Positions 19,349 through 20,658 of a DNA stretch of 64,000 nt are shown here, piece after piece (the stretch's first letter is position 1; each line of letters opens with the position of its first letter). The notes under the pieces were generated by a model. The model made no database searches. It had not been told where the DNA came from and saw nothing but the letters and a program-made list of their open reading frames with translations. The stretch is from Staphylococcus sp. 17KM0847 (GTDB lineage: Bacteria > Bacillota > Bacilli > Staphylococcales > Staphylococcaceae). The stretch spans positions 434,001 through 498,000 of the forward strand of contig NZ_CP040781.1 of assembly GCF_013463155.1 (NCBI RefSeq), read 5' to 3'. Made by a program: the position numbers and the translations under genes.

Positions 19349-19373
19349 AAAATAATGGCGCTTCACTTTTTGT

Positions 19374-19405
19374 GGTGGGATGGCATATGCTGTCTCACCT
19401 TTTTT
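19374..19405 (+). terminator. Terminator after the thioesterase gene
   Basis: GGTGGGAT (19374-19381) and GTCTCACC (19392-19399) form an 8-bp stem with two G-U pairs, followed by six T. Confidence 0.65.
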
Positions 19406-19604
19406 GGTATACAAAAAGCGCATATGTCTCTTTATATACCCCCTTATAGTCATACTATTATTATCTTTTAGTCTAGGAATAATAATTTTCACAATCATAG
19501 CTACTGTTATATTCGCTATAATATATGGATATTTTGTAGATGAAATATTTGTAACTATTTTAGGTTTAATTTACATACCATTACTAATGATTATTTTGTT
19601 TTAA
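19380..19604 (+). CDS. Small hydrophobic ORF, possibly 5'-truncated
   Basis: 74 codons encoding an almost wholly hydrophobic product: after PFLVYKKRICLF come two or three membrane segments (FIYPLIVILLLSFSLGIIIF, IIATVIFAIIYGYF, IFVTILGLIYIPLLMIILF). The only ATG falls inside the terminator hairpin of the previous gene and has no ribosome-binding site, so the true N-terminus may be lost or the ORF may be a relic. No family is recognised. It opens a run of tiny ORFs unlike the surrounding core genes. Confidence 0.4.
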   Translation: MAYAVSPFLVYKKRICLFIYPLIVILLLSFSLGIIIFTIIATVIFAIIYGYFVDEIFVTILGLIYIPLLMIILF

Positions 19605-19649
19605 CAGAGTATTTACTTGGTTGTAAAAGTTAATAAACAAATTGGTCAC

Positions 19650-19834
19650 ATGATGTCAGAAAACGAACAACAAGTTAATAAATTTTTTGACATAGGGTTA
19701 AAATCGTTTGGTTTACTTTCAGCGGGAATATCAGTGGCTAAATATATATTTAATATGACTAAAAATCATTTGAGAAAAATACAGAAGTTCCAGATTTTGT
19801 TGTATCAATTATTTCTGATTTAAATACTTCATAA
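19650..19834 (+). pseudogene. Small ORF with a probable 1-nt frameshift
   Basis: From ATG 19650 or 19653 the frame reads MSENEQQVNKFFDIGLKSFG and on through a hydrophobic stretch to NMTKNHLRK. It then becomes low-quality and ends at 19822. In the neighbouring frame the sequence continues plausibly as NTEVPDFVVSIISDLNTS and stops at 19834. One missing A in the A-run at 19775-19779 would join the two parts into a protein of about 61 residues. It has no recognised family and a weak ribosome-binding site. A sequencing error in the homopolymer is an alternative explanation. Confidence 0.4.
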
Positions 19835-19923
19835 ACAAACCTCCAAAATTAAATTAAAACTAAAACAACATTGGAAACACTTAAGCACGATTTTTGACCA
19901 TTTAGGAATTATTGAACTTTTTA

Positions 19924-19961
19924 ACTAATTATTTTGTTAGGTTAGATACAAGATAATTAGT
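19924..19961 (+). repeat. Inverted repeat upstream of the secreted-peptide ORF
   Basis: ACTAATTAT (19924-19932) and ATAATTAGT (19953-19961) are perfect 9-bp arms around a 20-nt loop. They end 13 bp before the start codon and just before the GGGAGTGGGG ribosome-binding region. This could be an operator or a translation-controlling hairpin. No T-tract follows. Confidence 0.45.
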
Positions 19962-19974
19962 GGGAGTGGGGAAA

Positions 19975-20373
19975 ATGAATAAAAATATTAGTTTTAAATC
20001 TAGAATAACAAAAGGGTGTGATGCATTTGCTATTGTATTAAGTGTAGTTTTAAGCTCTGTATTAGCTGATCATTATTCTTATGCATAGGAAAGTAAAACT
20101 ATAGAATCAACTGAAAATGGTTTGGGTGTTTTACAAGTAGTTAATGATGAGCAAGCAGTTTTTAAGTTAAATAAAAATATTGGTTATCAATTAAACGATG
20201 ATGGTAGTATATCATTGATTGATAATAATAAAAACGAAAGTAAAAAACTTCCTATAGAAGGTAAAGACAGAAACAATGAAAAAATAAGATATGTTTATAC
20301 AGAAGATAATAATCAATTAGTATTAAATGCTGTAAGTGAAAATGCTACATCAACCAGAGGGGCTAGAGAATGA
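19975..20373 (+). pseudogene. Secreted small protein gene interrupted by an in-frame amber codon
   Basis: From ATG 19975 (preceded by AGTGGGG) the frame encodes a basic N-region, a hydrophobic core (FAIVLSVVLSSVLA) and an AxA-like site ending SYA: a signal peptide of 37 residues. Codon 38 is TAG (20086-20088). The same frame then stays open for 94 codons, including YQLNDDGSISLI, and stops at 20373. A single C-to-T change of CAG would produce this lesion. An internal ATG at 20122 could restart only a leaderless product. Read through, it is about 131 residues with no cysteine after the signal peptide. It overlaps the next gene by ATGA. A bacteriocin-type precursor is conceivable but unproven. 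Confidence 0.5.
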
Positions 20374-20579
20374 ATGTTGAAAAGATAATGAATGGTTATA
20401 TTTTGATAGCTTTGATAATTATTATACTATTAGGACGTTTATTAGTTTATGCGTTATCGGGAGATGTTACGAAAACAATAAACTCTTTTAGCTTTTTTTG
20501 TCATTTAATGGGTTTAGCTGTTTATATATATTGTTTATTTTTAGTGAAAAAGCAAGGTAAGATTGATAGTTTTTGGTGA
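20370..20579 (+). CDS. Small two-helix membrane protein coupled to the secreted ORF
   Basis: 69-residue protein with two predicted membrane helices (about residues 10-29, ILIALIIIILLGRLLVYAL, and 40-60, FSFFCHLMGLAVYIYCLFLV) and a short basic C-terminus. Its ATG overlaps the stop of the preceding secreted ORF as ATGA, implying translational coupling. Small two-helix proteins next to secreted peptides are often immunity or export helpers, but no family is recognised here and the partner gene seems broken. It is followed by hairpins at 20625-20652 and 20662-20693. Confidence 0.55.
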   Translation: MNVEKIMNGYILIALIIIILLGRLLVYALSGDVTKTINSFSFFCHLMGLAVYIYCLFLVKKQGKIDSFW

Positions 20580-20658
20580 ATTTGTTTTTTAGTACTAATA
20601 TTGCTTAAAGATATATAAATAAAAGGCTGTCCACCACAGAAGATGAACAGCCAATAAT

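Follow-up and report, generated by a model that had tools for sequence, protein, structure and literature searches.

The window analysed here, a 64,000-nt stretch of the genome of Staphylococcus sp. 17KM0847, contains an islet of small open reading frames between a thioesterase gene and mnhG. All the features of the islet described below lie on the forward (+) strand. The original prediction had proposed four small frames at this locus and all four are present where it had placed them: a hydrophobic frame of 74 codons (ORF1, 19380..19604), a short frame with an apparent frameshift (ORF2, 19617..19823), a secreted precursor frame interrupted by an amber codon (frame 3, 19975-20373) and a two-helix membrane protein of 69 amino acids (20370..20579). 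Its placement of the islet between core genes was also borne out. The thioesterase gene was found in 84 out of 84 Staphylococcus species, and the gap separating it from mnhG spans ~1.35 kb in the window versus 77-960 bp in those relatives whose two genes lie close together, a comparison drawn from the best-matching loci of the thioesterase; in the closest relative (L058), this gap is 81 bp. For several other loci, the stretch examined yielded either no mnhG or a partial match to it ~1.3-1.4 kb away. The wider gap of the window marks the islet as inserted DNA when compared to the nearest species, and removing it would leave 57 bp between the flanking genes.

The true edges of the islet delimit a segment of 1,296 bp (19357-20652) that carries one end of an ISL3-family insertion sequence (IS) on each side, with ~1.2 kb of foreign DNA between the two. 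The left end (19357..19434) is 95% identical to bases 1-78 of a 1,586-bp copy of the element (L156) and includes its left terminal inverted repeat (19357-19377), and the right end (20627..20652) is identical to the right end of the same long copy at 24 of 26 bases. The islet's 21-bp terminal repeats present a single mismatch. Both terminal inverted repeats of the resident ISL3 element are therefore found at the islet, as in a derivative of this element. We searched the flanks of the islet for an 8-bp target duplication and did not detect one: they present only the 6-bp direct repeat AATAAT on both sides (19351..19356 and 20653-20658). Another ISL3 copy of the genome (L187) presents a clean 8-bp target duplication (ATTATAAA). 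A total of 57 matches to this IS were found in the genome (e.g., L156 and L186-L194), many of which are pieces or internally deleted copies. The 1,586-bp copy is the longest of them and encodes a DDE_Tnp_ISL3 transposase (E = 1.6e-21) that is broken into frames. Since the transposase is broken even in the longest copy, the activity of this IS family in the genome may be extinct. Many ISL3 copies of this 2.0-Mb genome have shrunk to MITE-like pieces that retain both ends. At one ISL3 relic (L194:1-865), one flank is the inverted copy of the other (CATAAAAAAC / GTTTTTTATG), a pattern reminiscent of insertion into the stem of a terminator.

The four frames do not constitute the single decaying system that had been originally proposed: this view holds for frames 3 and 4 and fails for the other two. 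The first ~18 codons of ORF1 lie inside the ISL3 IS end and recur across the genome. Codon usage gave no coding signal for this frame (z about 0) and we found no credible homologue. ORF1 is indeed open over 74 codons, but its start inside the IS end and its lack of coding signal rule it out as a gene. ORF2 is an orphan that is not linked to the module formed by frames 3 and 4. Its coding signal is weak in two successive frames (z of 2.0 and 2.4), which is compatible with the frameshift suggested for this ~61-residue frame and with the remnant of a small gene; no relatives were detected in the 84 Staphylococcus genomes or on plasmids. Searches of Pfam, NCBIfam and PHROGs returned no credible family for any ORF of the islet.

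Frame 3, in contrast to ORF1, was once a gene, as implied by profile matches that run across its amber codon. The frame opens with a predicted Sec-type signal peptide (19975..20088) that ends in the in-frame amber codon (20086-20088, read in one assembly), directly after a cleavage-like site (...SYA). The pro-domain follows (20089..20373; alignments A1 and A3). A profile of this domain matches the window frame across the amber codon from positions 2 to 113 of 115 (E = 1.1e-26), and a family profile built on seven members (A2) matches the window copy with an E-value of 1.1e-22. Past the amber codon, the frame has matches among other staphylococci to proteins that reach 200 codons in length. Intact versions, whose existence had been anticipated for related strains, are present in related staphylococci and also on plasmids and phages. 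Compared to these relatives, the window precursor ends (...ATSTRGARE-stop) exactly where they enter a core bounded by cysteines. We searched the six frames of the locus for a remnant of this core and found none. The window copy retains the Sec signal and the pro-domain but not the Gly-rich, two-cysteine core, and we consider it to be a broken member of the family. The secreted ~131-residue frame was therefore correctly recognized as decaying, although the two lesions first noticed did not include the main one, which is the loss of the entire core peptide.

Members of this precursor family were found in 23 of the 84 Staphylococcus species using the profile of seven members, and two more distant genomes of Bacilli presented full-length relatives. 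Plasmid-borne members occur in S. aureus, S. simulans, S. hsinchuensis, S. epidermidis and Macrococcoides, and other members are carried by SPbeta-like phages and PT1028. The members found on mobile elements are annotated as hypothetical proteins or with an ORF number and nothing more. Scans of viral sequences using three queries (L053, L048 and L032) yielded no further members. In the SPbeta-like staphylococcal phages (L049 and L112-L114), the intact member adjoins a YolD-like gene. The layout of the family (alignment A3) consists of a signal peptide, a pro-domain of ~80 residues carrying a KDKNG-like motif and a Gly-rich core with a cysteine near each end; the junction between pro-domain and core often presents TRG or W. 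Structure prediction suggested an all-strand pro-domain and did not resolve the core, with low confidence (mean pLDDT of 47). The fold search based on this low-confidence structure returned no PDB match at an E-value of 0.001 or better, and a sequence search of the PDB gave no match. We found no description of the family among open-licence papers.

The identity of the core is suggested by more distant proteins. The family profile (A3) also matches short GG-leader proteins in other Bacilli. Two of them (L126 and L127) are GG-leader class II bacteriocins encoded in 2-Mb genomes of another family of Bacilli. The first belongs to Pfam Bacteriocin_IIc (PF10439; 3.9e-11) and scored 43.9 bits against the model of the staphylococcal core, whereas its own core, shuffled 5,000 times, reached at most 8.9; the second scored 31.0 bits versus 13.2 for its best shuffle. 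These scores indicate that composition alone is insufficient to explain the two matches. Because an unrelated Gly-rich protein (L130) reached 22.2, weaker matches are no evidence of homology. The core of the intact staphylococcal relatives, which is absent from the window copy, is thus homologous to that of Bacteriocin_IIc or Blp-like bacteriocins (Gly-rich, with a cysteine near both ends, ...KCGLG...GAATFC). As in the staphylococcal family, a small two-helix protein is encoded next door to these bacteriocins, and such ORFs were found downstream of both L126 and L127. The two groups differ in their export: Bacteriocin_IIc members present a GG leader of ~20-25 residues and are exported by an ABC transporter, whereas the staphylococcal family presents a Sec signal and a pro-domain of ~80 residues. 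The staphylococcal family also falls below the cut-off of PF10439. The simplest reading of these sequences is that one class II core has come to lie behind two kinds of export leader.

The promoter region of the window copy is also related to that of intact members. Positions 19861..20051, which cover the promoter and the first ~25 codons, share 76% nucleotide identity with the beginning of an intact member from an S. simulans plasmid (E = 3e-28). This region contains a direct repeat pair of the LytTR/AgrA type (ACACTTAAG-N12-CCATTTAGG, 19877..19906) located 98 bp before the start codon. The scan used the consensus ACAGTTAAG, which we take to be the consensus of AgrA sites. The pair matches it at 14 of 18 positions and differs by one mismatch from a pair of ACANTTARG repeats; no other site of the window, on either strand, reaches 14/18. 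Similar pairs were found 99-105 bp before six other genes of the family, each rarely matched by shuffled sequences (p of 0.01 or less). A spacer of 12 was favoured among spacers of 8-16, with seven strong pairs, versus three with a spacer of 11 and none elsewhere. Overall, a strong pair was present in 7 of 22 family promoters and absent from the remaining 15. The binding sites of LytTR regulators consist of 9-bp direct repeats separated by 12 bp, and some of them lie in bacteriocin promoters (PMC6193735); those of AgrA are paired direct repeats located upstream of agr P2 and P3 (PMC4227749). The genome encodes a single LytTR protein, located within the agr locus (agrB, agrD and agrA), and its own agr P2 site before agrB (ACACTTAGG-N12-ACAGTTAGG) resembles the pair of the window. 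Pairs with up to two mismatches are hardly more common across the genome than in a reversed control (10 versus 8), such that the weight of this observation rests on the position of the pair and on its recurrence in relatives. These results suggest that the pairs are putative AgrA sites and that the window promoter and those of the family that carry them are probably under agr control.

The two-helix protein is coupled to frame 3, as originally noticed: its start overlaps the stop of the precursor (ATGA). It has a single clear homologue, in another species (G018, L002:1501-1698; 41% identity, E = 3e-11). A secreted product associated with a small membrane partner had been considered a layout of the bacteriocin/immunity type, and this is supported by the intact loci: all 27 core-bearing members that were checked are followed by a protein of 53-65 amino acids with two hydrophobic stretches, which starts -14 to +61 bases from the stop. 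The window partner shares the position and topology of the partners in these 27 loci. Its profile comparison with them was not significant (hhalign probability of 2.9%), so a role in immunity rests on position and topology, which make the 69-aa ORF the likely surviving immunity gene. In G018, the homologue of the partner follows a frame of 15 codons that overlaps its start and that may be the leftover of a precursor start. A repeat pair matching at 15 of 18 positions lies upstream and the locus carries no toxin. The G018 and window loci both look like cases where the toxin was lost and the partner was kept.

Alternatively, it is conceivable that the precursor is a secreted signalling or regulatory protein whose pro-domain is functional alone, with the two-helix protein as its membrane receptor or anchor and the core-less window form as a functional variant. 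This would be in agreement with the layout of a secreted protein next to a membrane protein and with the existence of core-less relatives: two species, G010 and G020, contain open frames encoding a secreted pro-domain of 119 amino acids (L009:1363-1719 and L010:1366-1722). The dN of 0.018 and dS of 0.148 of this pair suggest that these core-less members are under purifying selection, which may leave room for a use of the pro-domain of its own. However, no two-helix partner was detected for these two members, and the intact cores match known bacteriocin cores far beyond shuffled sequences. In addition, carriage as a cassette by plasmids, phages and islands is a typical trait of toxin-immunity pairs, and the amber codon of the window copy falls directly after the signal peptide. 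We consider this scenario unlikely. It is less likely still that the cassette is a toxin-antitoxin pair for phage or plasmid maintenance, or a superinfection-exclusion pair, acting on its own cell: the presence of the family on SPbeta-like phages, PT1028 and plasmids and its small membrane partner would be compatible with such a role, but the Sec signal and pro-domain would put the product outside the cell and the core is homologous to bacteriocins that are released. Finally, the possibility that all of the four frames are open by chance, in intergenic DNA that is AT-rich, fits ORF1 and possibly ORF2 but is refuted by the significant homologues of frames 3 and 4, and we give it very little credence.

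The best reading of the locus is that of a bacteriocin locus, probably quorum-linked, that is dead but has kept its immunity gene. We consider it likely that the islet is what remains of a mobile cassette for a bacteriocin and its immunity, enclosed by the ends of an ISL3-family IS that has itself decayed. Under this scenario, the intact precursor would be expressed when cells are dense, using an AgrA-type promoter in a subset of the family, and exported by the Sec pathway with its signal, beta-strand pro-domain and Gly-rich core. The core would then be oxidised by the formation of a disulfide between its end cysteines and freed from the pro-domain by an extracellular protease. Once released, it would act on the membranes of competitors, and the downstream two-helix protein would protect the producer. 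In the window, the toxin is dead, with an amber codon and no core; the promoter, the pro-domain frame and the two-helix ORF remain and may still be expressed. The locus would thus give immunity at most.

The nearest working model for this mechanism is EntV of Enterococcus: its 170-residue precursor loses its signal and is cut by GelE, and the 68-residue product requires a disulfide between its two ends (PMC6606811, PMC9562342). The staphylococcal family can be likened to EntV (also called enterococcin V583 or enterocin O16, EF1097), corynicin JK and streptococcin A-M57 by description, not by sequence. EntV shares a signal peptide, an N-terminal half that is removed, a C-terminal active part closed by a disulfide and an agr-like quorum system, Fsr (PMC6606811, PMC9562342 and references cited by them). 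In contrast, the N-terminal half of EntV forms three helices (PMC9562342), whereas the staphylococcal pro-domain is predicted, with modest confidence, to be all-strand. No structural match to EntV was found by sequence search of the PDB or by the low-confidence fold search. A GelE-like M4 protease was found in four of the seven carriers of intact members that were tried. An aureolysin-type M4 protease as the general maturase of the family is not supported, being absent from the other three.

Other exported bacteriocins can be compared to the family by description. Sec-dependent class II bacteriocins such as enterocin P and hiracin JM79 combine a class II core with Sec export and lack a GG leader, as in the staphylococcal family, but they are not known to possess a large pro-domain and their cores belong to other families. 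The SDP toxin of Bacillus subtilis (SdpC/SdpI) is similar in that a Sec-exported precursor is cut to a short, membrane-active peptide with a disulfide, and in that immunity is provided by a membrane protein. SdpI is, however, a larger protein, and SdpC is processed by SdpA and SdpB; no genes of the SdpA/SdpB type were seen beside the staphylococcal family.

The main result is the family, which would stand out among class II bacteriocins by its leader and pro-domain, and the window locus is a relic of it. With about equal weight for and against, we propose that these genes represent an undescribed family of agr-linked, Sec-exported bacteriocins, in which a large secreted pro-domain precedes a core of the class II, Blp-like kind. 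Its carriers would be the plasmids, SPbeta-like phages and islands of staphylococci, S. aureus among them, and natural immunity-only derivatives (the window and G018) would have dropped the toxin while keeping the quorum-linked promoter and the protection gene. If true, a bacteriocin family has been hidden under the label of hypothetical protein on the mobile elements of S. aureus and related species, and a single homologous core is shared between two export routes, one using Sec and a pro-domain and the other ABC and a GG leader. Density sensing by agr would then be tied to killing between staphylococci, as Fsr is for EntV in Enterococcus, and the window would represent a natural case where the toxin was lost and the protection gene was kept.

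Varied stages of decay were also observed within a single Staphylococcus genome, G088, which carries several copies of the family, on C1 at positions 896329-896850, 188301-188806 and 1641660-1641908 (L034, L044 and L046). One of these copies is split by a frame change and one lacks the start of the pro-domain.
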